Shown here: positions 873 to 23,533 of the stretch, one piece after another
Layout: each line of letters begins with the position of its first letter
Position numbering within the stretch: position 1 is the first letter of the stretch
Origin: a virus
DNA length: 64,000 nt
Direction: 5' to 3' (one strand)
Virus record (IMG/VR): IMGVR_UViG_3300022841_000014
Location: 1-64,000 of that record
The notes under the pieces: model-generated
Told to the model about the DNA's origin: nothing
The model's database searches: none
Seen by the model: only the letters and a program-made list of their open reading frames with translations
Translations under genes and position numbers: made by a program

Positions 873-939
873 TATAAATACCCGTTACCCTTCAAATATT
901 ATCCTATTAACAAAGACGAATGTAGAGGATGTCAATTCA

Positions 940-1002
940 TTGTAACTTAACAATACACAAAGTTACAAGAAATAAATGACATATGCAAGTTTTTAAGCAT
1001 AT
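940..1002 (+). repeat. two consecutive inverted repeats in an intergenic region
   Basis: TTGTAACTT (940-948) pairs with AAGTTACAA (960-968), and ATATGC (981-986) pairs with GCATAT (997-1002). With the stem at 834-872 they make three successive hairpins in a 236-nt stretch that holds no convincing gene. A short open stretch at about 879-950 contains a CxxC pair but has no start codon. The region may be an untranslated RNA or the decayed remains of a small gene. Confidence 0.35.
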
Positions 1003-1046
1003 ACTTTATATTTAATTAAAAATTAACTATACTAAATAATAATAGA

Positions 1047-1190
1047 ATGGATGAAAAAGTAATTTCAATGACATATATTGGCTCAAATGCTGATGATGTT
1101 GTTGTACAAAATCTTATTAAAAATAACTATTTAATAATTAATAGTGTTACTTATAATAAAAGTATACATTATATTTTTTTAAAAGAGTAA
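1047..1190 (+). CDS. hypothetical small protein, 47 aa
   Basis: An ATG-to-TAA frame of 47 codons, with residues such as TYIGSNADDVV near the N-terminus and a beta-rich remainder. There is no membrane segment or recognised motif. An overlapping ATG at 1051 gives only three codons, so 1047 is the reasonable start. Composition and position fit the run of small early genes. Confidence 0.4.
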   Translation: MDEKVISMTYIGSNADDVVVQNLIKNNYLIINSVTYNKSIHYIFLKE

Positions 1191-1249
1191 CATAAATGAA
1201 AATATAATATAATATATTATATAAACATAAACAATTAAAACACAACAAC

Positions 1250-1315
1250 ATGGAAGCTTATTGGTTCATAGTAATATTAGGATTTATTATTTTTGCGTGT
1301 AGCAATAGAGATTAA
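1250..1315 (+). CDS. possible 21-aa hydrophobic micropeptide
   Basis: The frame encodes an almost entirely hydrophobic stretch ending in CSNRD, with TAA as stop. It sits between two small genes and just before a hairpin that looks like its terminator. The spacing supports a real transcript, but the length is too small to be sure of translation. Confidence 0.25.
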   Translation: MEAYWFIVILGFIIFACSNRD

Positions 1316-1336
1316 TATATCTTATAATAATATAGT

Positions 1337-1367
1337 ATACTGTTAAATAATATAACAGTATATTTTT
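1337..1367 (+). terminator. rho-independent terminator
   Basis: ATACTGTTA and TAACAGTAT form a 9-bp stem around a 7-nt loop, followed by ATTTTT. It separates the micropeptide region from the membrane protein at 1398. Confidence 0.6.
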
Positions 1368-1397
1368 AAATAATATAATCAATTTAAATAAAATACA

Positions 1398-1784
1398 ATG
1401 AAACACAAACAAAAATTAATAATATTAATAATATCATTTTTATTATTAGTACCATTTAGATTACCTATTAGTATATTGTTAATAGAGCTCTTTAACAACT
1501 TAGCACAATTAACTGGACATACATTAGATAAAAATATATTACTAGCAAACGTAACGCTTACTAAGCTTATATACAACGTAAGTTTAAGTTTATTAATGCT
1601 TTATAATTTTGAAAGATTAATAATAGGTATTAAAGAAAGAAAAGGTCAATATAGAGAATATTCTCATACTCCATATGAAGATAGAGTATGGTATCACACT
1701 TTTATTTTAGCAGCTTTCTTACTTAGTTATCTTTGTTTTGATGTATATTGGACAGTAGAATTATTTAATAGTATAATATTATAA
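1398..1784 (+). CDS. multi-pass membrane protein, 128 aa
   Basis: About three hydrophobic segments are visible: residues 7-32, 50-68 and 100-125. A charged loop lies between the second and third (around ERLIIGIKERKGQYRE). The short basic N-terminus suggests it faces the cytoplasm. No family is recognised. It is immediately followed, 2 nt after its stop, by the 266-aa gene, so the two probably share a transcript. A role in membrane modification or superinfection control is possible but is only inference from topology. Confidence 0.6.
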   Translation: MKHKQKLIILIISFLLLVPFRLPISILLIELFNNLAQLTGHTLDKNILLANVTLTKLIYNVSLSLLMLYNFERLIIGIKERKGQYREYSHTPYEDRVWYHTFILAAFLLSYLCFDVYWTVELFNSIIL

Positions 1785-1786
1785 TT

Positions 1787-2587
1787 ATGAAAAAATACAA
1801 ATTAATTAAAGAATATTCTGGTAGCCCTGATATAAATACTATTATTGAAAAAATTACTGACAATAATCATTTTTTTTGTCCTAAAAATTGTTATTTTACA
1901 AAAGGTTTTATTATTGATACTAATATTATAGAAAATTATTCTGAATATTGGGAAGAAATAATTGAAAAAGATTATGAAATATTGTCTTTTAAACAAAAAT
2001 CTTTAATTGATGATTTATGGATTATAGGTAATAAAGGTGGGTGGCAAAGAAATGGTATAGACACTACACCTCAATCTACTTTTACAATGTTAGAAAGAAC
2101 AGAAATGTATTATATACATTCAGTAAAAAGATTAAATGATGGTGAAGTGTTTACTGTTGGTGATGAAGTAATTTTTAATAATAGTGTATCTTTTACTATT
2201 AAAACTTTTCATATTTCTGAAGGAAATAGAATAGCTTGTGGAGATATGGAAATAAATTATATTAAACATATTAAAAAACCTTTATTTACAACAGAAGATG
2301 GTGTTGATGTCTTTGAAGGTGATGAATTTTATAATACATGGGATTTACTTGTGCCTAATAAAGAAATAGCTGAAAGTAGAAAAAAAGATTTTTACAGAGA
2401 AAAACCTGTAAATAAGTATTGCATTTATTTTTCAAATAAAGAAAAAGCTGATGAATTTATATTATTAAATAAAAAATGTTTATCTATTAATGATGTTAGT
2501 AATTTTTACACAAGTGCTTCTAATAATTTATCTAAAAATAGTAAAGGTTTAATAGAGTTAGTAAAAGATAGATTAACAAAATATTAA
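1787..2587 (+). CDS. hypothetical protein, paralogue of the gene at 32952
   Basis: A soluble 266-aa protein. Its N-terminus (KYKLIKEYSGSP) and its blocks VKRLNDGEVFTVGD, EDGVDVFEGDEFY and the YFSNKEKADEFIL region recur in order in the 324-aa protein at 32952-33926. The GDE-type blocks are repeated SH3-like short beta units, as seen in many uncharacterised proteins of crAss-like and flavobacterial phages. No catalytic residues stand out. The stop TAA lies 7 nt before the tmRNA, so transcription may continue into it. Confidence 0.6.
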   Translation: MKKYKLIKEYSGSPDINTIIEKITDNNHFFCPKNCYFTKGFIIDTNIIENYSEYWEEIIEKDYEILSFKQKSLIDDLWIIGNKGGWQRNGIDTTPQSTFTMLERTEMYYIHSVKRLNDGEVFTVGDEVIFNNSVSFTIKTFHISEGNRIACGDMEINYIKHIKKPLFTTEDGVDVFEGDEFYNTWDLLVPNKEIAESRKKDFYREKPVNKYCIYFSNKEKADEFILLNKKCLSINDVSNFYTSASNNLSKNSKGLIELVKDRLTKY

Positions 2588-2594
2588 CATTAAC

Positions 2595-3038
2595 GGGGCT
2601 GACTGGTTTTGACCGCAGTGTAAATATTAATAAACAGTAGTGAGTGATCACTTTAAATATCGTAGGTGAAATTTCTAAACGGAAATACAATGAGTACGCA
2701 GGAAACTGCACAGGAAGTAGCTAACATGAGTGTTGTTCACAACATTCTTAACGGATCTGACGATCTAGTTGCACCAGTTGCAACAGTTAAGTTAGCAATG
2801 GCAGCATAATGCCAATGGTGAAAAAAGCATCGTAGTAACCATTATGTAGTAACTTATCACAGGATGCTTGATATTCTGGTATGTCCAGATAGACCCGAAG
2901 TACATTAGTATAGTGAAGCTGTATGATAAGTTAATTTAGTATGAGTAACTAGTGTAGAAGAAAACTATAAATTGAAAAACTGTATAATTTATTAATAATC
3001 AAATTGTTGGGACAGGGGTTCGACTCCCCTCAGCTCCA
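2595..3038 (+). ncRNA. ssrA: transfer-messenger RNA (tmRNA)
   Basis: The 5' end GGGGCTGACTGGTTTTGAC is the canonical tmRNA start, and it pairs with the 3' end CAGCTCC over 7 bp, including the G3-U70 pair that specifies alanine. The T arm AGGGG-TTCGACT-CCCCT and discriminator A (3038) are intact; CCA is not encoded. A tag frame ends at TAA 2807-2809. If the resume codon is GCA at 2771, preceded by CTAGTT much as GTAGTC precedes it in E. coli, the tag is APVATVKLAMAA. An upstream resume point near GTAGCT (about 2721) would give a much longer tag. At 444 nt it is longer than usual. A weak hairpin (AGAC/GTCT) follows at 3040-3053. It would act with host SmpB and ribosomes to rescue stalled translation. 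Confidence 0.92.
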
Positions 3039-3107
3039 CAGACTTCGCCGTCTAAAAAGCTGCGCCAGCAGGATATCTGGCAAATATAACATCATCCAAA
3101 GTTTTTA

Positions 3108-3148
3108 ACACTTTTATAGATTTGGGAAAGGTTATGTATCAAAAGTGT
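3108..3148 (+). repeat. 8-bp inverted repeat between tmRNA and tRNA
   Basis: ACACTTTT (3108-3115) is complementary to AAAAGTGT (3141-3148). It lies in the 178-nt spacer between the tmRNA and the interrupted tRNA. I see no T-arm motif or reading frame in this spacer, so it may simply be part of the precursor RNA. Confidence 0.3.
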
Positions 3149-3216
3149 AGTACATTGCAATTGATAAGGCTTGCATATATTATGTGAGCTTTTATCTAAA
3201 TAAAAAATAAAATAAA

Positions 3217-3368
3217 TATTCATTAGCTCAGTCAGGTAGAGTACTTGTATCAAATAACGCTACCAATGATTACTATAAGGAACTTTTTTATTTAAAGTTG
3301 CTAGATTTAATTTATTATAGATAATAGTGAATCACAAGAAGACACTGGTTCAAATCCAGTATGAATAT
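3217..3368 (+). tRNA. tRNA with about 78-nt insertion in the anticodon loop
   Basis: Both halves of a tRNA are present. The acceptor stem TATTCAT/ATGAATA is perfect, followed by T8-A9, the D arm GCTC-AGTCAGGTA-GAGT, the anticodon stem CTTGT (3244-3248)/ACAAG (3334-3338), a 5-nt variable loop and the T arm ACTGG-TTCAAAT-CCAGT. The loop region is 85 nt instead of 7, so about 78 nt are extra. Depending on the splice point the anticodon would be CAA (Leu) or GAA (Phe). No splice choice gives UCA, the anticodon needed for TGA-Trp. The insertion has its own nested pairing (CTATAA/TTATAG around AACTTT/AAAGTT). It is much shorter than a known group I intron. Confidence 0.7.
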
Positions 3369-4020: not shown

Positions 4021-4239
4021 ATGGATTTAATAAAAGCTTGTTTAAAAACAAAATTTGATGGTCCTAAAATAGAAACTGTTAAAAAAGAAAAAAAAACAAT
4101 AACAGAAAATACTAATTTAGATGATAAATGTTGTGATGCATGTATTAATTTAACATTTCCATTTACAACGTGTGGTATAGACGGTGAAATAGTACAACCT
4201 TATAATGTATGTAATCTTTTTCAAAGCGTTTATATATAA
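4021..4239 (+). CDS. Cys-rich small protein, 72 aa
   Basis: The C-terminal half has a CCDAC cluster, a later CG and a final C (VCNLF). That is four or more cysteines, which could bind one metal ion as a small zinc-finger-like unit. The N-terminal half is Lys-rich and probably disordered. It directly abuts the preceding gene. Function unknown. Confidence 0.5.
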   Translation: MDLIKACLKTKFDGPKIETVKKEKKTITENTNLDDKCCDACINLTFPFTTCGIDGEIVQPYNVCNLFQSVYI

Positions 4240-4268
4240 ATTTTAAAATTAACTTAAATAATTAAATT

Positions 4269-4565
4269 ATGGGATTATTAAAATCAGGAACTCAAATAGG
4301 TTCTTTAACAGTAAGATATTCATCAGGAATGGTTAATATTGGTAATAAAGGAAAACAAATAAAAGAAACTACTTGTTTTATAAAAGATATAAAAGGTAAA
4401 GTTGTTTCTCAAGCAACTGTTAAAAAATTTTCAAAAGATCAAGATGTTACTGATGTAGCTAGAAATTATGCAACAGAAACAGCTTTAAGTTTAGTAGAAA
4501 ACAAAAAAATTAAAAAAGAATTATACTCATGGTGGATACCTTTAAAAAATCAAATAAAGAATTAA
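4269..4565 (+). CDS. hypothetical protein, 98 aa
   Basis: The N-terminus looks beta-rich (IGSLTVRYSSGMVNIGNKG) and the C-terminal half helical and basic. No family is recognised. The AT-rich leader AACTTAAATAATTAAATT precedes the ATG. Its last 37 nt overlap the next gene in another frame, a sign of translational coupling. Confidence 0.5.
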   Translation: MGLLKSGTQIGSLTVRYSSGMVNIGNKGKQIKETTCFIKDIKGKVVSQATVKKFSKDQDVTDVARNYATETALSLVENKKIKKELYSWWIPLKNQIKN

Positions 4566-4855
4566 AATTAGAAATACCTATACTTGGATTTCTAAACAAC
4601 ATAAAACCTATTTTTAATTTATTAATAGGTTTTGATATTGAAATAGATTATGACAATAGTGATGATTATAGATATTTAAGTATAGAAATAAAAGCTGATA
4701 AAAATAGTGAAAATTTAATATTAGCTAATTCATTTTCTAATATGGCAACATCTTTGTTAGATCTTAATTATACTAATGTATATACTTCTAATACAATTAA
4801 TAAAAAAGATGAAATTGAAATTGTAATACATTATGACTTAGGAGTTCGTGTTTAA
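4529..4855 (+). CDS. hypothetical protein, 108 aa
   Basis: A soluble acidic protein whose strand-rich core (FDIEIDYDN, YLSIEIKADK, DEIEIVIHYD) resembles the 97-aa protein at 3726. The start ATG lies inside the previous gene. Its TAA stop is within the loop of a strong terminator, so this gene closes the small-gene transcript. Confidence 0.5.
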   Translation: MVDTFKKSNKELKLEIPILGFLNNIKPIFNLLIGFDIEIDYDNSDDYRYLSIEIKADKNSENLILANSFSNMATSLLDLNYTNVYTSNTINKKDEIEIVIHYDLGVRV

Positions 4856-4870
4856 TCACGAACTTTTTGT
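4844..4870 (+). terminator. terminator overlapping a stop codon
   Basis: GTTCGTG and CACGAAC form a 7-bp stem with the loop TTTAAT, followed by TTTTTGTT. The last codons and the TAA of the upstream gene lie within the hairpin, so terminating ribosomes would cover it. Confidence 0.8.
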
Positions 4871-4893
4871 TAGACTTTATAAAAATAAAAAAT

Positions 4894-6822
4894 ATGAAAA
4901 AACAATGAAGTAACAAAACTTACATATACGATTTAGAAACATATAAAGATTTATTTCTTGCTGTGTTTAAGAATATAGAAACTAATGAGTTTTGAAGATT
5001 TGAAATTAACAAATACAAAACAGACATAGTAAAACTTTACGAGTTTCTTAATCAAAGAAACATGACTTTAATAGGTTATAATAATGTTAATTTTGACTAC
5101 CCAGTCTTACATAACACTATACTTAAAGTTAAAAGAAAATGAACATCTGAAGAGATATACAATGAAGCACAAAATGTAATACAAGCTGATTATTCTGCAA
5201 TATGGGATAATCAAGTTAAGATATCTCAAGTAGATCTTTTTAGGATTAAACATTACGATAACAAAGCACGTAGAACGTCTCTTAAATGGCTTGAATATGC
5301 CATGAGAATGGATAATATACGTGATCTTCCTTATCCACCAGACAGTGATCTTACAAAAGACATGATGTCTGAAATAATATCTTATTGTGACCATGATGTA
5401 AATGCTACACATTTATTTTATAACAAATGTCAAAAAGAAATTGAGCTAAGGCTTCAGTTATCTGAGGAATATGGTTTAAATTTAATAAATGCTAATGACC
5501 CTAAAATTGGTAGTGAAATATTCTTAGATTTATTATCTAAAGAAATGAATATTAAAAAGAAAGAATTATCAGAGAAAAGAACTTATAGAAAATCAGTTAT
5601 ATTTAATGATATAATACTTGACTATATTAAGTTTGATTCAAAAGAAATGCAAAAAGTTCTTTTTAATTTTAAATCATATGTATCAAAAGATACTAAAGGT
5701 GAATTTAAATTTAGTGGTAAGATAGGTAACATTATTAATGATTTTGGTCAAGGTGGTATACATGGTTGTACTAAACCTGGAGTGTATGTAAGTGATAAAA
5801 CTCATGTAATCATAGACATTGACGTAGCAAGTTACTATCCTAACTTAGCTATTAACAATGAATTTAGACCAAAACACTTAGGAGAAGCTTTTAGTAAAAT
5901 TTATAAAAGTATATATGAATTAAGAAAGACATTTCCTAAATCAGATCCACGTAATGCAGCTTGTAAATTAATGCTCAATGGTTCATTTGGTAAAATGAAT
6001 GATATGTATAGTTTTTTGTATGATCCCAAATGTCTGTTAAGTATTACTCTTAATGGTCAATTACTTTTAGCTATGCTTATGGAGAAAATATTTAAACATG
6101 TTAATGATATTACATTTTTGCAATCAAACACTGACGGTTTTACTTTTATTATAAAGAGAACTGATGTAGATTACATGAAAAAGATAGTTACATCCTGGGA
6201 AAATAAAACTAATCTTGTAATGGAATATGCTGTTTATGACAAAATGATAATACGAGATGTTAATAATTACATGAGTATTACTGATACAGGTTATACTAAA
6301 TACAAAGGTGCTTTTGAAATGGATAGGGATTATAACAAAAATCATAGTAAAAGAATTGTAGCTATTGCTTTAGCTAATTATTTTGCAAACAATGTTAGTC
6401 CTGAAGATACTATTTATAATCATTTGTCAAATCATTCAACATCAGAGAATTATACTTTTTGTGAAAACTACGGTATTCACGATTTTTGCTTAGGTGTAAA
6501 GATGACAGGTGATAATAAACTCGTTGAAAGGATTGTAAAAGACTATGAGCCAGAAGATCATGAATTAGGTAAGGTAACTAGATATTTCGTTTCTAACGAT
6601 GGTGAAATGCTTGTTAAAAAGTTACCACCATTGCCTGATAAAATACCTACATTACAAATAAACATATTTGGTGAGATAGATATGGGTGATAGAGAATCAA
6701 GTATTGAAGCTGGTTATAAAACAACAGTTTTTAATCAGTATTACAACAATGATAATTATAATATAGATTATAACTATTATTTAAGAGAAGTTAATAAAAT
6801 TATTAACGTAATTAAAAATTAA
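4894..6822 (+). CDS. DNA polymerase family B with 3'-5' exonuclease
   Basis: The replicative polymerase, 642 aa when TGA is read as Trp at codons 5, 34 and 83 (4906, 4993, 5140). Without recoding only a fragment from about 5302 would be made and the exonuclease would be lost. Exo I is YDLET near the N-terminus, Exo II is NNVNFDYP, and Exo III is YCDHDV. Polymerase motif A is DVASYYP, motif B is KLMLNGSFG and motif C is NTDG. It is compact for family B, similar to other crAss-like polymerases. It follows the 4844 terminator, so it probably has its own promoter. Downstream genes are closely spaced. Confidence 0.93.
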
Positions 6823-14225: not shown

Positions 14226-15263
14226 ATGGTAGATTTAAATAAACACGTATCTAAACCATTAGTAACTAAAGCGGTATTAGATATAGAATTAAAAGACAGT
14301 GAAATATATTGTTTTTACATGAATACTGATAGTATTAACTTAAATTCAGCTATGAGTTCACCTCTAAGAGAAGATCCAACACCATCGTTTGGTTTTTTTT
14401 TAAATAAAAGAGGTAATATTATATATAATGATTTTGTAAATGGAGGTGGTGATTGTTATAAATTCGTAAAAGAATTTTTTGCATATTCACAATGGTATGA
14501 TGTTTACAGTCAAATTGCAATTGATTTTAATTTAGATAAAAAGTACAAATGTAGTAATAATTTATTAAACAATGAAAATAAAAATAAAGTAAAGTATGAC
14601 GCTAACATACAAATACTTAAAAAAAAGAAATGTAAAATATCAGTAAACAAAAGAATTTGGGAAGTTCACGATTTAAATTATTGGAATAAATTTAACATAA
14701 ATAAAGTTATGTTAATAAAATACAGAGTTTTTCCATTAAAATATATTTTTATAAATAATAAACCTATAGCAGCAGATAAAAATGCATATGTTTATATAGA
14801 AAGTAAAGATGGTTTAATAACACATAAGATATATCAACCTTATAGTAAATTTAAATGGATAACAGACAATGATAATTCAGTATGGCAAGGTTGGGAACAA
14901 CTTTCTTTAAATGGTAACATTTTAATCATAACAAAATCACTTAAAGATGTAATGTCTATAAAAAGTACAACAGGTTATGATGCAATAGCTTTACAAAATG
15001 AAAAAGCTAAACCAAAAGATAATATAATTGAACAATTAAAAGGTAGATTTACTAAAATTTTTATATTATTTGATAATGATTATGATAAAAAAGAAAACTG
15101 GGGTCAAATAAACGCCAAAGAAATATCTAGAAATCATATGATTACTAATATAGTAATAAATAAAGAATATAAATCTAAGGATTTTTCTGATTTAGTTAAT
15201 AATCATGGTAAAGATTTAGCAAAAGAAATATTAAATTCTAAAATAAATAAAAAAGATGAGTAA
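14226..15263 (+). CDS. DnaG-type DNA primase
   Basis: 345 aa. The N-terminal part has the CHC2-like layout SPLREDPTPSF, a strand, then NDFVNGGGDCYKFV, but lacks the zinc-binding Cys/His set. The C-terminal part is a toprim domain: ILIITKSLKDVMSI where the Glu-containing motif is expected, and FILFDNDYD carrying the DxD metal ligands. The Glu to Lys/Ser change in the first toprim motif is notable and may reflect how far the family has drifted. It would make RNA primers for PolB at the fork. Its last 8 nt overlap the next gene. Confidence 0.8.
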   Translation: MVDLNKHVSKPLVTKAVLDIELKDSEIYCFYMNTDSINLNSAMSSPLREDPTPSFGFFLNKRGNIIYNDFVNGGGDCYKFVKEFFAYSQWYDVYSQIAIDFNLDKKYKCSNNLLNNENKNKVKYDANIQILKKKKCKISVNKRIWEVHDLNYWNKFNINKVMLIKYRVFPLKYIFINNKPIAADKNAYVYIESKDGLITHKIYQPYSKFKWITDNDNSVWQGWEQLSLNGNILIITKSLKDVMSIKSTTGYDAIALQNEKAKPKDNIIEQLKGRFTKIFILFDNDYDKKENWGQINAKEISRNHMITNIVINKEYKSKDFSDLVNNHGKDLAKEILNSKINKKDE

Positions 15264-15642
15264 AAATATAAACATTAGTGTTTACGGAACATTAAGAACT
15301 GGTTATGGAAATCACAGAGTATTGGGTAATTCAAAATTAATTGGTGCTGGATGGACTAAAAATAAATATAAATTGACAGCAAATGGTATTCCTTTTGTTA
15401 ATCCTAACGAGCAAGTTAGTAAAATTAGAGTAGAAGTTTATTCAGTTACACCTGATCAATTACCTACAGTAGATAGATTAGAAGGTTATGATCCTAGAGA
15501 TCATGAAGGTTCTTGGTATAAAAGAACACCTATTGAAATAACTCTTGATACAGGAGAAGATGTAAAAGCTTCTATTTACTTTGGTGAAAACGAAGGTAAA
15601 ACATTAATTGAATCTGGAGATTATGCCGATTATAGAAACTAA
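15256..15642 (+). CDS. gamma-glutamylcyclotransferase-like (AIG2 fold) protein
   Basis: 128 aa with the family start SVYGTLRTGYGNH, a Gly-rich loop that binds gamma-glutamyl groups, and RLEGY carrying the expected catalytic Glu. Enzymes of this fold release 5-oxoproline from gamma-glutamyl amines or remove gamma-glutamyl groups from amides. It opens a run of peptide and amide chemistry genes, where it could trim or cyclise a gamma-glutamyl product. It overlaps both neighbours by a few nucleotides, so it is part of one operon. Confidence 0.85.
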   Translation: MSKNINISVYGTLRTGYGNHRVLGNSKLIGAGWTKNKYKLTANGIPFVNPNEQVSKIRVEVYSVTPDQLPTVDRLEGYDPRDHEGSWYKRTPIEITLDTGEDVKASIYFGENEGKTLIESGDYADYRN

Positions 15643-16084
15643 ATTAATATATTCTCGTTCTAAAAGAAGAAAATCTGCTAAATCTTATATAATTGATCTT
15701 TTAAAAAATAGACCTAATACTTATAACGATAAAAAATTTACAGAAATTCAATGTCGCAGAAGTAAATATAGAACTATTTATGAAGTTTATTGTATTCTTA
15801 AAACTGAATATACATCTTTAACTTGGAAACGTTATTTAAGTATAGTTTTTAGTTTAGTTGATTGTGAAGAAACAGCTATTAATTTATGGTATTGTTTTCA
15901 TGTATCAGGTATAGTTTTTAATAGTAGTGTGTCAACAGATAAAGATGAAAATTTTCCTTTTTTAAAAAGAATAGGTAGTACATCATGGCATTCAGCGGAA
16001 AGAATTGAACAAACTGGTTTTAAACACAAATTTGCAAATTTAGAAAATTTAAACAAATATTATAAAAAATATAATGAAAAATAA
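15623..16084 (+). CDS. hypothetical protein in amide-ligation cassette, 153 aa
   Basis: I chose the ATG at 15623 (MPIIETKLIY) rather than a TTG at 15608. It overlaps the cyclotransferase-like gene by 20 nt. The N-terminus is basic, the middle has Cys/Trp-rich strands, and residues near HSAERIEQTG look helical. No family is recognised. Tight overlap on both sides (11 nt with the ATP-grasp gene) makes it a fixed member of the cassette, so it may be its target protein or an accessory. Confidence 0.55.
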   Translation: MPIIETKLIYSRSKRRKSAKSYIIDLLKNRPNTYNDKKFTEIQCRRSKYRTIYEVYCILKTEYTSLTWKRYLSIVFSLVDCEETAINLWYCFHVSGIVFNSSVSTDKDENFPFLKRIGSTSWHSAERIEQTGFKHKFANLENLNKYYKKYNEK

Positions 16085-16958
16085 ATATACAAAATTTCGT
16101 CCTGTAATATACAGTAGGCATCCTTCTCACACTAATCTTAGAAGAAATAATAAGACAATTGAATTATTACCATTTCGTTCAGTAGTAAGATTAGGTTCTA
16201 GTACTGAATGTAAAGACACTATTGCAAATGGAGGTGATAGATTAGAATTAAATACTGTTGATGCAATTCGTAATAGTAGTAGTAAACTTCGCATGAAAAA
16301 TTGTTTTCAAAACGCACAACCAAGTGTTAAATCAGCAGATTGGTATAGATGTAGTAATGATAATAATAATTTTTTATTGCAAACAAAAGCTGAAATAATA
16401 ACAGTTTCTTTAGAAGATATGCCATTACCATTAGTTGCTAAATCATTATATGGTAGTAGAGGTCAAGGTAATACTTTACTTAAAACTATTGATGAAATTA
16501 GAAATTATTTACGTTCAGGTGTCAATTTAGAAAATCGCATTTTTGAACGTTATTATAATTACTCAAGAGAATATAGACTTCACGTTGATGCAAATGGATG
16601 TTTTTATACTTGTCGTAAAATGATGAAAAGAGATACTCCTGAAGAAAATAAGTGGTATAGAAATGATGATAATTGTGTATGGATTCTTGAAAATAACGAA
16701 GCTTTTGATAAGCCTAGTAATTGGCAATCTATAATTGATGAATGCGTAAAAGCTCTTAATTCAACAGGTTTAGATTTTGGTGCAATTGATCTTAGAATAC
16801 AAAGTTCTACAGATAGAAATGGTAATATTAATGAAAATCCAGATTTTATTATTGTAGAAATTAATTCTGCTCCATCATTTGGAGATATAACAGAAGAAAC
16901 TTATATTAAACATATACCAGTAATGCTTAAAAATAAATATAAAACTTTAAATAAATAA
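16074..16958 (+). CDS. ATP-grasp ligase, RimK-like
   Basis: 294 aa with ATP-grasp landmarks in order: PLVAKSLYGSRGQG (nucleotide-binding lysine and Gly-rich loop), EYRLHVDANG, FGAIDLRIQ, and VEINSAPSFGD (E-x-N metal ligands). Family members join a carboxyl group to an amine or thiol with ATP, for example adding Glu residues to a protein tail. Substrate cannot be read from the sequence. Beside two glutamine amidotransferases and two amidoligases it most likely forms a peptide or amide bond on a cell-wall, protein or small-molecule substrate. Confidence 0.85.
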   Translation: MKNKYTKFRPVIYSRHPSHTNLRRNNKTIELLPFRSVVRLGSSTECKDTIANGGDRLELNTVDAIRNSSSKLRMKNCFQNAQPSVKSADWYRCSNDNNNFLLQTKAEIITVSLEDMPLPLVAKSLYGSRGQGNTLLKTIDEIRNYLRSGVNLENRIFERYYNYSREYRLHVDANGCFYTCRKMMKRDTPEENKWYRNDDNCVWILENNEAFDKPSNWQSIIDECVKALNSTGLDFGAIDLRIQSSTDRNGNINENPDFIIVEINSAPSFGDITEETYIKHIPVMLKNKYKTLNK

Positions 16959-16960
16959 AA

Positions 16961-17731
16961 ATGTCAAAAACAAAAACGTTAATTGGAATATTAGGTCATA
17001 ATCATACTGGTAAATATCAACCAGGTTATGGTCAAAATGCAGCTTACGTACACTTTGCAAGAAGTTTTGATGCAGATGTAGTTATAATAGATGCTGCAAA
17101 TGAAACTATATTACCAGTAGATTTATTAATATTACCAGGTGGACGTGACGTTAATCCTTTACGATATGGTCAAAAACCACATTATATGACTGATAATCCT
17201 GATATGGAATATGAATCATTTTATGATGTAAATCTTGGTGCTATTAATGGGTATATTGAACGTGCTAAACAAAATAAAACAGCAATTTATGGTATTTGTG
17301 CAGGTTTTCAAAATTTAAATGTCCACTTTGGTGGAAGTTTAAATCAACATGTTCACAATGATAGATCTACTACTTGGAGAGGTGAATTAGTAGATGATTT
17401 AGAAACAGTTATTGATAATTTTCCAAAAGATTATTTAGGTGAAATACTTATTTCTTCTAAAAAAGATAGATTAAATTATGTAAATAATGTTCCACGAAAA
17501 TTTAAAACAAATTCTATACATCATCAAGCTATTTTTATAGACAATTTATCTAATGATTTTTTACCATTAGCTTATGATGTCAAACATAAAAATATAGAAT
17601 TTATGATTCACAAAGAATTACCTATTGCTGCAGAACAATCTCACCCAGAAGAAAGATTTAACCCATTTGTTGCAATTGGAATTATTAACACATTATTAAA
17701 TAGAATAGAAAATGAAAAAAGAAAAAATTAA
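16961..17731 (+). CDS. class I glutamine amidotransferase (peptidase C26-like), copy 1
   Basis: 256 aa. ILPGGRDVNP, the nucleophile elbow GICAGFQ (Cys113), NSIHHQAI and the C-terminal QSHPEE supply a Cys-His-Glu triad. This pattern matches gamma-glutamyl-GABA hydrolase (PuuD)-like enzymes, which cleave gamma-glutamyl amides, rather than synthetase-bound subunits. It starts 2 nt after the ATP-grasp gene. It might hydrolyse or transfer gamma-glutamyl groups formed by that ligase. Confidence 0.85.
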   Translation: MSKTKTLIGILGHNHTGKYQPGYGQNAAYVHFARSFDADVVIIDAANETILPVDLLILPGGRDVNPLRYGQKPHYMTDNPDMEYESFYDVNLGAINGYIERAKQNKTAIYGICAGFQNLNVHFGGSLNQHVHNDRSTTWRGELVDDLETVIDNFPKDYLGEILISSKKDRLNYVNNVPRKFKTNSIHHQAIFIDNLSNDFLPLAYDVKHKNIEFMIHKELPIAAEQSHPEERFNPFVAIGIINTLLNRIENEKRKN

Positions 17732-18359
17732 AATATTTACATTATATGCATATCTTACTAATCAATATTTAGAATTTTTTAGTAATAAATATGAAATTGT
17801 AATAACAGAAGATTCTTCTGAAGAAGATATAAGCATTGCTTTATTTACTGGTGGAGAAGATGTTAACCCTATTTATTATGATGAACAATTAGGTTCTAAT
17901 ACTTATATTAACGCTAAAAGAGATACGTTAGAAGAAGAAGCATTTAATTCTTTAGCTCCTCATGTATTAAAAGTTGGTATATGTAGAGGTTCACAGTTTT
18001 TAACTGTAATGAGTGGTGGTAAATTAATACAACATATTACTGGTCACAGTAGAAGTCACAATGTTGTTGATATTGAAAATAATATTTTTGAAGTAACTTC
18101 TACCCATCATCAAATGATGTATCCATTTAATCTTAATAAAGATAATTATGATATAATAGGAATTTCTCAAGATATTTTATCTGAAAAATATCTTAATGGT
18201 AATGATCAAGAAATTTTATTAGATAAAAATTTTAAAGAGTGTGAAATAGTGTATTATAAAAATACAAATAGCCTTGCTATACAAGGACATCCAGAGTTTA
18301 ATCATTCAACATTAGAATTTAAAAACTATTGTTATAATTTAATAGACAAATTACTATAA
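17712..18359 (+). CDS. class I glutamine amidotransferase, copy 2
   Basis: 215 aa, with TGGEDVNP, nucleophile GICRGSQ (Cys91), TSTHHQMM and QGHPEF: a complete triad. It overlaps copy 1 by 20 nt, and both share the GG-x-DVNP motif, so they are probably a tandem duplication that has diverged strongly. Two adjacent copies suggest either two substrates or a heteromeric enzyme. Confidence 0.85.
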   Translation: MKKEKIKIFTLYAYLTNQYLEFFSNKYEIVITEDSSEEDISIALFTGGEDVNPIYYDEQLGSNTYINAKRDTLEEEAFNSLAPHVLKVGICRGSQFLTVMSGGKLIQHITGHSRSHNVVDIENNIFEVTSTHHQMMYPFNLNKDNYDIIGISQDILSEKYLNGNDQEILLDKNFKECEIVYYKNTNSLAIQGHPEFNHSTLEFKNYCYNLIDKLL

Positions 18360-18360
18360 T

Positions 18361-19188
18361 ATGAATAATAAATATAATTACAATAATCTTACTATTGGAT
18401 CTGATCCAGAAGTATTTGTTAGAGATTTTGAAACTAAAGAATTAGCTTCTATTATTGGAGTTTTTAATGCAGGTAAAAACGATCCTCTTGATATAGGAAC
18501 AGGTTGTTTTGTTCAAGAAGATAATATACTTGCTGAATTTAATATTCCACCTTGTAAAACAAGAGAAGAATTTTTAAATTCAATAAATTATGCTAAATCT
18601 TACATTGAAATGTTTGTAGCACCTTTAGGTATGGAACTTCATTATTCAAGTAGTGAAATTGCTACTGAAGAATTACTTCTTGATCCTAAAGCTCATGTTT
18701 TTGGATGTTCACCTTCTTATAACGCAATAACTGAATGTTCTTCAGATATTGCAGAAGAAGACACATCAGAATTAACTATGAGATCTTCTGGTTTTCACAT
18801 TCATTATGGGTGGGACAACCCAACAGAAGATGAAAGAGATAGATTATGTATGATGTTTGAATTAGCTGTATCATTACCTTTAATATTAGAAGATAATGAT
18901 GATCATAATCGCAGATCATTATATGGTAAAATCGGGGATTGTAGAGATAAAGATTACGGAATAGAATGTAGGTCTTTAGGTGGTTACTTTTTAAAAAGTG
19001 ATGATAGTATATTAAACGTATGGGATCGTTCCGTTATGGCTGTCAAAATGGCAGAAGAACTTGAAATTTCTAATGAAGATTTAAGAAAAGATATATTAAA
19101 TTATATTAATCCTGAATCAGATTTAGAAATTGAAAACGTAAATGAATTAATTGAAAAATACAAAATAAAAGAATATGTTAATATTTAA
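18361..19188 (+). CDS. putative COOH-NH2 ligase (amidoligase family)
   Basis: 275 aa with GSDPEVFV at the N-terminus, QEDNILAEFNIPP, SSGFHIHYGW and a later ECRSLGGYF. These are hallmarks of phage COOH-NH2 ligases, distant relatives of glutamine synthetase that join carboxyl and amino groups with ATP. The Glu, His and Arg residues in these blocks are the expected metal and nucleotide ligands. It starts 1 nt after the second amidotransferase and overlaps the next gene, so it is in the same operon. Confidence 0.8.
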   Translation: MNNKYNYNNLTIGSDPEVFVRDFETKELASIIGVFNAGKNDPLDIGTGCFVQEDNILAEFNIPPCKTREEFLNSINYAKSYIEMFVAPLGMELHYSSSEIATEELLLDPKAHVFGCSPSYNAITECSSDIAEEDTSELTMRSSGFHIHYGWDNPTEDERDRLCMMFELAVSLPLILEDNDDHNRRSLYGKIGDCRDKDYGIECRSLGGYFLKSDDSILNVWDRSVMAVKMAEELEISNEDLRKDILNYINPESDLEIENVNELIEKYKIKEYVNI

Positions 19189-21295
19189 TATAGTAATTAT
19201 AATGTTAATTATGCAAATGCTATTAAACATTTTTAGTAAAACACAAAAAAAAGATGTTTTTAGTTGTGGATTATTTGGATGGACTGGTGAAAATCCATCT
19301 TCATTTGATATGGATAAACTTAAAATATTAGGTGTTTTAAATGAAGAAAGAGGTACTAATTCTTGTGGTTTATATATAAATGAAAAATTACATAAAGGTG
19401 ACAGTATTGGTACAAACAATGAAGCTTTATTTAGAAATTTATTTATTAATGAAAGTATCCAAAAGTACAAAAAAAAAGTAGGTAACGTAATTATAGGTCA
19501 CACTAGAAATGCATCAAGAGGAGGTATTAAAAGTGTAAATAATACACATCCTTTTATGTTTGATATTGGTGATGGTTTTAATTTTATAGGTGCTCATAAC
19601 GGAACTTTAGATAATCACAAATTTTTAGCTGAAAAATATGAAGTAAATCTTAAAGATGATAAACATAGAGAAAAAGTAGATAGTGAAATTTTATTAGAAA
19701 TAATATCTAAAGCTAATGTAAAAAAACCTGATTATATAAAAGTTTTACAAGATTACAAAGGTGCTGCTGCATTGGTTTTACATTCACAAAAAGAAAAAGA
19801 AACTGTTTTTGTATTTAGAGGTAAATCTAAAAAATGGGAATATAATACTAGTGTTGCTGAAGAAGAAAGACCATTGCATTATTGGCAAGAATCTAAAAAT
19901 AGTATATATTATTCTTCTACAGTAGCTCCTTTAGAGCTTATATCAGGTAAAAGACATACTGAAAAAGATTCTAATATATATACTTTTGAAACAAATATAC
20001 TTTATAAAATAAAAAATGGTGTAATTGAAGCTTTGTTTAATATTGATAGAACTAAAAATGAAAAATACGATTCAATGTATGAATTTAATCGTAAAAAAGA
20101 AGAAAAAAACAGAAAAAATGTTGATAAAACTAAAAATAACAATAAATCAGTAAAAAATTTAGTTGTTTATAAATCAAAACAACCACCTGTTAATTCTAAA
20201 TTATTTATTAGTGCAAATAAAATACCAAATGATATTCAAAATGTTATTTCACCTTTAGAAAGTAAAATTGGAAAAAGTATTTTTTATGAGAAAATAATTA
20301 GGAGCAAAGAAATGGTTAATTATAATAAAGTTATTTTTGAAAATTTTAGATATAAACAAAACAACGAGCTTGTTAAAGATGGTATTTATGTTTATAGTGA
20401 AAATAATGGTTTTATATATGTTAGTAATTTAATACATGAAGCTAAAAATTTAATTAATAATTTTTCATTTTTTGATAAAGTTAATTCTAAAAATATTGTT
20501 TTAGGAAAAGTTGATTTAACTTTGTTTTACATAGTTAATGGTATTATGTTACTTACTGAATTAGATTATGAAACTATTAATTATAAAGGATCAGAAAACT
20601 TTACTCTTGAAGAATATTCGCACATGAGTGTTTATCCTATAACTTCTTATTATGAAAATTCATTTTTAAAAAATAAAAAAGAAGATTTATTAGAATTTAA
20701 TGCTCATTTATTTAAAAATAAAATTTTAAGAAAAGGAAAAGTAGTACAAAGTGAATCTGTACAAGCAATAGGTTCTACTTATATTTATAGTATAAGAAAA
20801 GGTATTTGTGTTGCTAGTTTTTATAATCATATTTTTAATAGTATAAAAAATAATAAAATAATTTTAAGTAATAAAAAAGTTATTGACAATGCTTATTTTG
20901 AAGACAAAAGTTTTGAAAAAAATATAAATAAACTTGTTAATAAAAATAATAAATTTGAAGAAGATTTTCAAGATTATGAATCAGGTATAGATTATTCAAA
21001 TGTTGACGAATTTGAAGACGAAAATGACGACATGAAAGTTGCATTAGATGATTTTAACACTTCAATAAAAGAATCTTTAGATTTAGGAATAGATTTTGTT
21101 AGTAAATATTCTGATAACAATGAATTAGCAACTAATGTTTTTAATTTTTGCGAAAATTTAGAAGGTGTTTATAATCCGTTAAGTAAATGGATTGATAATA
21201 TTTTAAATTCAAAAGAAATAAAAAATGATGATGATGAATATTTTGATGAAGATGAAATGGAATTTATTAATAGAAACAACAAATTTAACCAATAG
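19175..21295 (+). CDS. class II glutamine amidotransferase with long C-terminal region
   Basis: 706 aa. Residues 31 to about 260 form an Ntn-hydrolase amidotransferase: CGLFGW (Cys31 nucleophile), GHTRNASRGG, THPF, HNGTLDNH and DSEILLE. Such domains release ammonia from glutamine. The Cys must become N-terminal, yet about 30 hydrophobic residues precede it and no Met lies next to it. So either the leader is a membrane anchor or signal cleaved before Cys31, or the start is wrong. The C-terminal 400 residues are Lys/Asn-rich, ending in a strongly acidic stretch (DDDEYFDEDEMEF), with no known domain. It ends in TAG. Confidence 0.75.
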   Translation: MLIFNIVIIMLIMQMLLNIFSKTQKKDVFSCGLFGWTGENPSSFDMDKLKILGVLNEERGTNSCGLYINEKLHKGDSIGTNNEALFRNLFINESIQKYKKKVGNVIIGHTRNASRGGIKSVNNTHPFMFDIGDGFNFIGAHNGTLDNHKFLAEKYEVNLKDDKHREKVDSEILLEIISKANVKKPDYIKVLQDYKGAAALVLHSQKEKETVFVFRGKSKKWEYNTSVAEEERPLHYWQESKNSIYYSSTVAPLELISGKRHTEKDSNIYTFETNILYKIKNGVIEALFNIDRTKNEKYDSMYEFNRKKEEKNRKNVDKTKNNNKSVKNLVVYKSKQPPVNSKLFISANKIPNDIQNVISPLESKIGKSIFYEKIIRSKEMVNYNKVIFENFRYKQNNELVKDGIYVYSENNGFIYVSNLIHEAKNLINNFSFFDKVNSKNIVLGKVDLTLFYIVNGIMLLTELDYETINYKGSENFTLEEYSHMSVYPITSYYENSFLKNKKEDLLEFNAHLFKNKILRKGKVVQSESVQAIGSTYIYSIRKGICVASFYNHIFNSIKNNKIILSNKKVIDNAYFEDKSFEKNINKLVNKNNKFEEDFQDYESGIDYSNVDEFEDENDDMKVALDDFNTSIKESLDLGIDFVSKYSDNNELATNVFNFCENLEGVYNPLSKWIDNILNSKEIKNDDDEYFDEDEMEFINRNNKFNQ

Positions 21296-21321
21296 AGTTA
21301 ACATTAAAAAAATAAAATGAA

Positions 21322-22836
21322 ATGATAGTTAAAACTTACAAAGGTAAGAATTTAGAAAAAAGTAAATGTCGTAAAATACAAAATGATTATTACGAAATAG
21401 GTGATAACAACATAGAAGGAAGTGGTGGATGTTACAAAGTAAACGGTAGATATCATAGATTTAATAATGGTCTTATTGAATTTGATCATGAAAATAAATC
21501 TTACGTTTTAGTAAATAAACAACTTTTAACAAGGGGTATAGTAAGTATAAATAAAGATGATTCTTTTATATTAGGATTTTTTTCACCTAATCCTACTAAA
21601 AACATAAAAGTTGTTGTAGACAATTTTAATGTAACTAATTGTATAGATGAAGAAACATTAGGTAGTAAGTATTCTGAACATTTAAATACAGGTAATTTTT
21701 ATAAAAAAGATGAAATGTCAAAATCTTCTTTTAATAAAATAGGAAAAGCACCTGTAGATAAAAATTCGTTAAACTACGATAGTAGATTTGTAACTAAAAT
21801 GATTGAAAAATCATATAATCAGTATTACAAAGTTCCTAGTGTTAAAAATCAAATGGTAGAAGAATTAGGTATTTTATTAGAAAAAAATAAAATAACTTTT
21901 GGTCTTGAATTTGAAACTTCAAAAGGTTATTTACCTGATAGATTGTGTTATAAACACGGTATAGTAGCATTAAGAGATGGTAGTATATCAGGTTTAGAAT
22001 ATGTTACAGTTCCTTTAGATGGTAGAAAAGGTTTATATAATGTAATGGAAATATGTAAATTATTAAAAAAAAGAACTGATTATGATTTTACATGTGCTTT
22101 ACATTTACATTTAGGAGGTCTTAAAAGAGATGTTGACAATATTTTATCTATAAATAATATAGCAAATATGCTAGAAGAAGATATGTATTCTTTACAACCA
22201 TTGTCTAAAAAAATTTCTACTGATTACGGTAAAAATAAAAATTACAGTGGTCCAATGAATTGTACTCCTTTAAGTATTATGATGTCTGACACAGATAAAC
22301 CTTTACCTAAACTTAAAAAATTAGCTTTTGATAGTTTATTTAAGCATTTATCTGGTGGATATTCATTTTCAGATTTTGGTAATGATTTAGAAAAAATACA
22401 AAATCATCCTAAAGACCCTAATGGTACATCTAAATGGAACATTAGAAGTCGTTACGTATGGTTTAACATGATTCCTATTATATTTACTAACAAACAAACT
22501 GTAGAATTTAGACAACATAATAATACTTTTGACTTTTTTAAAATTTACAATTTTATGTTAAGTTCAGCAATAATGGTTATGGCAGCTAACAAATTAGAAG
22601 ATAAATTTAATAATCCTAAATTTTTAAAATCTTTTAGTAAATTAAATAGTAAATATGAAACATTAGTAAAACTTACTAAAAGTGAATTCCCAGAACTTAC
22701 AGATTCTCTTTGTGAAAATAATATAAAATATTTTAAAGAAAGAGTTAAAGTTATGAAAAAAATGAATATTAATGACCCTAAAGGTCTTAATGAACATAAA
22801 TTTTATGATGATTTTACAAATACTGTAGATGAATAA
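21322..22836 (+). CDS. putative amidoligase enzyme
   Basis: 504 aa. The N-terminal 180 residues are beta-rich and unknown. From about residue 190 the amidoligase core appears: TFGLEFET, LRDGSISGLEYVT, a C-x-LHLHLGG block and TVEFRQHNNT, with the Glu, His and Arg residues used for metal and ATP binding. Amidoligases form amide bonds from a carboxylate and an amine. It closes the cassette, 26 nt after the class II amidotransferase, whose ammonia it could use. Its end overlaps the UDG-like gene by 8 nt. Confidence 0.8.
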   Translation: MIVKTYKGKNLEKSKCRKIQNDYYEIGDNNIEGSGGCYKVNGRYHRFNNGLIEFDHENKSYVLVNKQLLTRGIVSINKDDSFILGFFSPNPTKNIKVVVDNFNVTNCIDEETLGSKYSEHLNTGNFYKKDEMSKSSFNKIGKAPVDKNSLNYDSRFVTKMIEKSYNQYYKVPSVKNQMVEELGILLEKNKITFGLEFETSKGYLPDRLCYKHGIVALRDGSISGLEYVTVPLDGRKGLYNVMEICKLLKKRTDYDFTCALHLHLGGLKRDVDNILSINNIANMLEEDMYSLQPLSKKISTDYGKNKNYSGPMNCTPLSIMMSDTDKPLPKLKKLAFDSLFKHLSGGYSFSDFGNDLEKIQNHPKDPNGTSKWNIRSRYVWFNMIPIIFTNKQTVEFRQHNNTFDFFKIYNFMLSSAIMVMAANKLEDKFNNPKFLKSFSKLNSKYETLVKLTKSEFPELTDSLCENNIKYFKERVKVMKKMNINDPKGLNEHKFYDDFTNTVDE

Positions 22837-23533
22837 GGATATTATTAATTTTAAAAAAACTTTTGGTAACTGGGTTAATGATGAAAGTTTTCTATATATA
22901 ATTAAATCAGATTATTTTAGAAAACTTATTGTTTTTTTAAACCAAGTTTATAATAAAAGACAAATATTTCCTTTAAAAAAAGATATATTTAAAGTTTTTA
23001 GATATGTCCCTTATAATAATATTAAAGTGGTGATATTAGGAGATTCTCCTTACCCTAATGAATCAGCAAACGGCTTTGCTGTAGCAAATACAGTTGATAC
23101 ACTTAGGGTGTCACCTTCTTTATTTAAAATAAGAGAATGTATAGAAAAAACTACTAATACTTTAATTGTTGATTTTGATGTAACTTTGCAAAATTGGGCT
23201 TTACAAAATGTTTTATTGTTAAATACATCATTAACTATTCAAGCAGGTATGGTAAATCCACACAAGCATATTTGGGATGAATTTATTAAAGTTACTATTA
23301 ATACTATTATAGATAATAATCCAGGTGTAATATTTTGTTTATGGGGAAACGATGTTATGAGAACTTTTCACAAAGTTGTTCCAGAAAACAAATTAAAATT
23401 TTGTTATGCTTTAAAATGTATACATCCTGAACTTGCTGCAAAACGAAATGAAGAATGGAATTGTAATCATTTTAAACAAATTAACGAATTAATAAAAGAA
23501 AACAATGGAAAAGAATTTTGTATTAAATGGTAA
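22829..23533 (+). CDS. uracil-DNA glycosylase-like protein with altered catalytic motif
   Basis: 234 aa with the UNG fold order: VVILGDSPYP, NGFAVAN, SPSLFKI, LQNWALQNVLLLNTSLTI and CLWGN, then a final HPELAAKR. In active UNG the first block is GQDPYH with catalytic Asp. Here Q-D is D-S and His is Pro, so the Asp is shifted by one or lost. The second motif keeps the His but not the usual Ser-Pro. The protein may be inactive, may use a different base, or may bind uracil DNA without cutting. Its last 29 nt overlap the next gene. Confidence 0.75.
   Translation: MNKDIINFKKTFGNWVNDESFLYIIKSDYFRKLIVFLNQVYNKRQIFPLKKDIFKVFRYVPYNNIKVVILGDSPYPNESANGFAVANTVDTLRVSPSLFKIRECIEKTTNTLIVDFDVTLQNWALQNVLLLNTSLTIQAGMVNPHKHIWDEFIKVTINTIIDNNPGVIFCLWGNDVMRTFHKVVPENKLKFCYALKCIHPELAAKRNEEWNCNHFKQINELIKENNGKEFCIKW

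Follow-up and report, generated by a model that had tools for sequence, protein, structure and literature searches.

The closest described counterparts of the locus studied here are the amidoligase cassettes of the phiEco32 and LUZ24 types of phage, in which a COOH-NH2 ligase, an amidoligase, a class II glutamine amidotransferase (GATase), an ATP-grasp ligase and a gamma-glutamyl cyclotransferase (GGCT) are encoded in one cluster. A cell-wall role in phiEco32, credited to Iyer et al. (2009) in PMC10580990, is a prediction. In LUZ24 the order is ligase, unknown, amidoligase, class II GATase, ATP-grasp and GGCT, with a phrog_4877 gene between the two ligases. Similar sets are annotated in ECBP2 and Vibrio phage Vp_R1, in Salmonella phage 7-11, whose fetched stretch has no annotated GGCT, and in cr108_1 (no GGCT detected in the cassette), and a cyanobacterial phage carries GGCT, ATP-grasp and a relative of the class II GATase. 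Cellulophaga phage phi14:2 (Crassvirales, Steigviridae) shows, at g037-g041, the order primase, GGCT, ATP-grasp, COOH-NH2 ligase, class II GATase, amidoligase and uracil-DNA glycosylase (UDG).

The window analysed here comprises 64,000 nucleotides of IMGVR_UViG_3300022841_000014, an AT-rich, crAss-like viral record of 66.7 kb. The sequence-only reading had described an eight-gene amide and peptide ligation cassette at 15256-22836, with nearly all genes overlapping or abutting; an ORF check confirmed the eight ORFs, their coordinates and their location on the + strand (Table 1). The family assignments made at that stage were upheld by Pfam, PHROGs and profile matches, seven of the eight genes being amide-bond enzymes by Pfam and PHROGs and the remaining one a small unrelated gene. 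The cassette runs GGCT, small protein, ATPG, C26a, C26b, CNL, GAT2 and AML, between genes for a DNA primase and a UDG. The right flanking gene belongs to phrog_12143, a function-less label in PHROGs, yet matches Pfam uracil-DNA glycosylase. Further along, at ~34500, both GC skew and gene direction switch and three very large - strand ORFs (1613-2658 aa) lie beyond, as is expected for the late region of crAss-like phages.

Table 1. Features of the cassette and its flanks in the window, with the support for each assignment.
Feature	Description	Coordinates	Strand	Support
DNA primase	Left flank marker	14226..15263	+	phrog_12622 DNA primase 4.7e-70
GGCT	Gamma-glutamyl cyclotransferase-like; catalytic Glu in LEGY motif	15256..15642	+	Pfam GGACT 3.1e-20; phrog_2520 1.1e-27; alignment
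Small protein	152-153 aa, not dedicated to the cassette; alternative ORF opening at TTG 15608	15626..16084	+	Multi-copy family of crAss-like early proteins
ATPG	RimK-like ATP-grasp carboxylate-amine ligase	16074..16958	+	phrog_2599 9.5e-34; profile matches
C26a	Class I GATase fold / peptidase C26; Cys-His-Glu triad present	16961..17731	+	Peptidase_C26 1.9e-21; alignment
C26b	Second C26/class I GATase-fold protein; triad C91-H193-E195	17712..18359	+	Peptidase_C26 4.1e-13; phrog_7218 1.9e-36
CNL	phiEco32-like COOH-NH2 ligase type 2, glutamine-synthetase-like	18361..19188	+	PF14395 5.1e-6; phrog_3815 1.3e-60
GAT2 prepeptide	Transmembrane prepeptide, 30 codons, MLIFNIVIIMLIMQMLLNIFSKTQKKDVFS	19175..19264	+	Ends directly before catalytic Cys codon 19265-19267
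GAT2	Class II (Ntn) glutamine amidotransferase with C-terminal extension	19175..21295	+	GATase_6 4.2e-11
AML	Amidoligase_2, glutamine-synthetase-like ligase	21322..22836	+	PF12224; phrog_2443 2.7e-56
UDG	Uracil-DNA glycosylase, right flank marker	22829..23533	+	Pfam UDG 2.9e-9

The window has the gene content of the phiEco32/LUZ24 type: the COOH-NH2_lig (PF14395) and Amidoligase_2 (PF12224) matches score 26.4 and 25.6 bits, above their curated cut-offs of 25 and 22, and class II GATase, ATP-grasp and GGCT genes are clustered with them. The gene order is not that of LUZ24 and the phrog_4877 gene is missing; order was treated as a variant mark of the cassette type and not as a defining one. Because similar sets are annotated in phi14:2, cr108_1, LUZ24, ECBP2, 7-11 and Vp_R1, the cassette is of a known kind, namely the crAss-like form of the phiEco32/LUZ24-type amidoligase cassette. 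It differs from that type in the C26 genes inside the crAss block and in the prepeptide of GAT2. Phage phi14:2 shares the order of the window and also has a GAT2 with a transmembrane prepeptide, but lacks the C26 genes and the small protein and has a more divergent GGCT.

Viral contigs were scanned with COOH-NH2 ligase, ATP-grasp and amidoligase baits, which yielded 163 non-redundant loci, among them a few named phages. Linkage was assessed on distinct viral loci fetched with a single bait gene and extending 7 kb or more to either side of it, counting core enzymes within 9 kb. The core four (COOH-NH2 ligase, ATP-grasp, class II GATase and amidoligase) occurred together in 33/37 loci with the COOH-NH2 ligase as bait, 44/45 with ATP-grasp and 44/54 with the amidoligase, counts that are biased as frequencies over all phages because the baits came from crAss-like proteins and the sets were picked for crAss-like relatives. 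Chance clustering of the cassette genes was ruled out by these single-bait values. Among 131 cassettes, GGCT was present in 87 and the CNL-GAT2-AML order of the window in 72, and the placement between primase (before GGCT) and UDG (after AML), which the sequence-only reading had missed, was shared by the window genome and many crAss-like relatives; linkage and order are thus conserved in related phages, and the genes are not scattered. Catalytic residues were intact in the window and almost everywhere among relatives, being kept in 144/151 class II GATases, 137/147 amidoligases, 132/151 COOH-NH2 ligases and, for the Cys-His-Glu triad, 154/160 C26 family members, while ATP-grasp R168, D239 and E262 were each found in 141/141. 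Neither of the two outcomes named beforehand as refuting the sequence-only reading, scattered genes and loss of catalytic residues, was thus observed. Linkage and catalytic residues both agree with its view that these amide-bond enzymes work as a unit of the kind that Iyer and Aravind predicted for phages. The same reading had called the presence of class I and class II amidotransferases in one operon striking; the pairing proved common, 107/131 cassettes having a C26/class I-like gene in the vicinity of the class II one and 39 having two.

Several features of individual loci were recorded alongside. A second IMG/VR contig (IMGVR_UViG_3300035698_010570, locus L002) carries the cassette with COOH-NH2 ligase, ATP-grasp and amidoligase at 100% protein identity. 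In L071, L151, L161 and L125, CNL or AML is split around an extra ORF resembling a homing endonuclease, which suggests introns or inteins in the cassette genes of several crAss-like relatives. The thymidylate synthase gene, whole in the window, is split in two in relatives of it (L003 1790-3299, L005 2055-3564 and L004), and in L004 the thymidylate synthase and Sak4-like genes are both split (937-3364 and 4048-5784). Downstream of AML, the loci L127, L134, L062, L146, L132 and L160 encode a further class II GATase-like protein, which is divergent and begins with MCLI... A scan of bacterial and archaeal genomes for a cellular source operon, which was of limited sensitivity, returned only 3 COOH-NH2 ligase relatives, all on MAG contigs.

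ATPG had no Pfam match and was identified through PHROGs; its profile matches RimK, alpha-L-glutamate ligases and cyanophycin synthase in the PDB, and both its ATP-grasp residues and its sequence relation to RimK place it among RimK-like ATP-grasp enzymes. In CNL the conserved residues are E17, E59, H146, R184 and E202. C26a and C26b had been read as two class I amidotransferases, and the class I GATase fold with its Cys-His-Glu triad bears this out as far as the fold is concerned. The role is another matter, since both proteins score best as Peptidase C26 and the nearest solved relatives of the C26 profile are stand-alone proteins, so that trimming of gamma-glutamyl bonds appears at least as likely as ammonia supply. 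These relatives are Lin1909 and the entries 7d4r/7d50/7d53 ('probable glutamine amidotransferase'), which we take to be the gamma-glutamyl-polyamine hydrolase SpuA, with PuuD matching more weakly. In the C26 tree the two copies group by gene position.

The small protein of 153 residues had been suggested as a possible target. Relatives, most of them encoded upstream of the primase and away from the cassette, were detected in more than 30 loci with a family profile built from the four members occupying its slot, and define a multi-copy crAss-like early-gene family. The slot between GGCT and ATP-grasp holds the protein in only four non-redundant loci and lacks it in most cassettes. Because the family is multi-copy, mostly distant and missing from the slot in most cassettes, the protein is unlikely to be a target, and it was rejected as the peptide target. 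Its AlphaFold model is of high confidence (mean pLDDT 94.8) and gave no significant PDB match.

GAT2 has the Ntn glutaminase domain of PurF, GFAT and AsnB, with a conserved catalytic Cys and the glutamine-pocket residues R111, N142-G143 and D169. Its nearest solved relatives are PurF/GFAT; PDB matches span only part of the protein, and the predicted model (mean pLDDT 74, pTM 0.47) is poor beyond the Ntn domain. The propeptide of PurF and of glutamate synthase is cleaved. GAT2 differs from PurF, GFAT and AsnB in that its prepeptide is a membrane helix that has been gained and lost repeatedly and in that no acceptor domain is recognised in its C-terminal part. Residue 31 is the catalytic Cys, and the 30-residue prepeptide before it consists of a hydrophobic helix (predicted at 2-20) and a basic linker; a start at one of the in-frame ATGs, at 19202 or 19211, would truncate the helix. 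The Cys could be placed in 140 GAT2s, of which 93 begin with Met-Cys and 46 have an extension. A transmembrane-like helix was found in 45/46 extended forms (the window and 44 other loci), compared with 1% when the first 28 residues of the other genes in and beside the cassettes are taken. The prepeptide is mostly 24-33 residues long (43-54 in three), and the residue preceding the Cys is mostly Asn, Ser or Gly. A lipoprotein signal was considered and rejected, with a lipobox before the Cys in 0/46 and basic residues separating it from the helix. A quick Ntn-domain tree requires 24 changes of the trait, at least 15 of which are forced by well-supported branches, and the anchored and Met-Cys states differ between near neighbours (e.g. 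L152 and L158).

It is very improbable that the prepeptide is an annotation artefact, with translation beginning near the Cys. Its opening in the window does lie over the 3' end of CNL, and a pN/pS of ~0.5, pooled over few and non-independent pairs, indicates modest constraint. However, the helix recurs in 45/46 extended forms against 1% of controls, the codon directly before the Cys is never a start codon (0/46), and an extended GAT2 starting only at the Cys would leave ~100 bases empty, whereas Met-Cys forms begin a median of ~3 bases after the upstream stop (~14 for the extended forms). Together with the frequency of the helix and the pN/pS value, the lack of a start codon at this point is consistent with a membrane tether. 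The prepeptide is a new detail, overlooked in the sequence-only reading, in a cassette type that has been described before; a literature search of titles and abstracts found no earlier report of it.

The combination of three amide-forming ligases with a glutaminase and with two types of gamma-glutamyl-opening enzyme suggests a pathway in which gamma-glutamyl or amide groups are added, used and removed. Gene set, conserved linkage, catalytic residues and the prepeptide as a sequence feature are established; the order of reactions, the cleavage, the substrate and what the phage gains are put forward as a proposal. The RimK-like ATP-grasp enzyme and the two glutamine-synthetase-like ligases, all ATP-dependent, would activate carboxylates and couple them to amines, the result most likely being a small molecule or stem peptide that bears glutamate or gamma-glutamyl groups. 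Ammonia for a ligase would come from glutamine split by the class II GATase, and the C26 proteins and GGCT would later remove the gamma-glutamyl groups or reset the product. GAT2 would be synthesised as a pro-enzyme that its N-terminal helix keeps in the membrane, and cleavage before Cys31 would free the nucleophile; ammonia would thus be released at the inner membrane, so that an envelope substrate, e.g. peptidoglycan precursors, would be favoured. In the PuuA-PuuD and BtrJ-BtrG pairs a ligase adds a gamma-glutamyl group that a C26 enzyme (PuuD) or a GGCT (BtrG) takes off again, a pairing of ligase and hydrolase that the cassette resembles in enzyme classes only. This analogy, the family matches, the single-bait linkage, the conserved order and the intact catalytic residues argue for a gamma-glutamyl/amide-forming pathway with a membrane-tethered ammonia-supplying step and a putative envelope substrate, to which slightly less than an even chance is given. 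Against it, glutamine-synthetase-like ligases may take free ammonia or amines without a GATase, and sequence searches of the PDB returned no solved relative of the COOH-NH2 ligase or the amidoligase. For the crAss-like class II glutaminase it is tentatively suggested, as a real possibility short of an even chance, that it is a membrane-tethered pro-enzyme, in which an interchangeable transmembrane prepeptide would block the nucleophile until clipped at the membrane and would couple ammonia supply to envelope-modifying ligases. A membrane location is unnecessary for the core reaction, because 93 of the 140 GAT2s have no anchor.

Other functions were weighed against the same data. The RimK-like ligase and the amidoligases could instead put glutamate or other amino acids on a host or phage protein such as the ribosome, RNA polymerase or capsid, with the C26 proteins and GGCT trimming the tags; the S6 glutamate ligase RimK is indeed among the nearest solved relatives of the ATP-grasp enzyme, and protein targets have been proposed for other phage ATP-grasp ligases, those of the R2K clade (Burroughs 2015, PMC4431377). 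Such modification is nevertheless unlikely here, as glutamylation needs no ammonia-supplying GATase and the cassette has no dedicated target gene, the small protein being unlinked to it. Still less probable is nitrogen salvage, in which gamma-glutamyl polyamines or similar compounds would be processed and their nitrogen fed to the phage. PuuD and probable SpuA entries do occur among the C26 relatives, and a Planctomycetes phage with amidoligase, GATase and GGCT is reported to aid nitrogen use by its host, the link to these genes being inferred by its authors (PMC10945688); but three ATP-consuming ligases fit such a role poorly, and the Pfam and PHROGs matches of the eight cassette genes include none to an aminotransferase or dehydrogenase of the Puu route. 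A role linked to replication, e.g. modification of DNA or of a replication protein, is highly doubtful. It would account for the primase-UDG placement in many crAss-like loci and for the primase/helicase adjoining the GGCT end in LUZ24 and ECBP2, yet no base-modifying enzyme is encoded among the cassette genes, 7-11 and Vp_R1 have no primase in the fetched neighbourhood, and the placement may reflect early expression only.

The locus is therefore a real and conserved cassette of an already recognised kind in a crAss-like layout, one enzyme of which has a new and testable feature. Many members of the abundant crAss-like group carry it, and comparable sets are present in phages infecting E. coli, Pseudomonas, Vibrio and a cyanobacterium; no report of the product was found. 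The prepeptide is the first clue to localisation and offers a natural comparison of close enzymes with and without a membrane anchor. As phi14:2, with Cellulophaga baltica #14 as its recorded host, has an anchored GAT2, the question can be tested directly.
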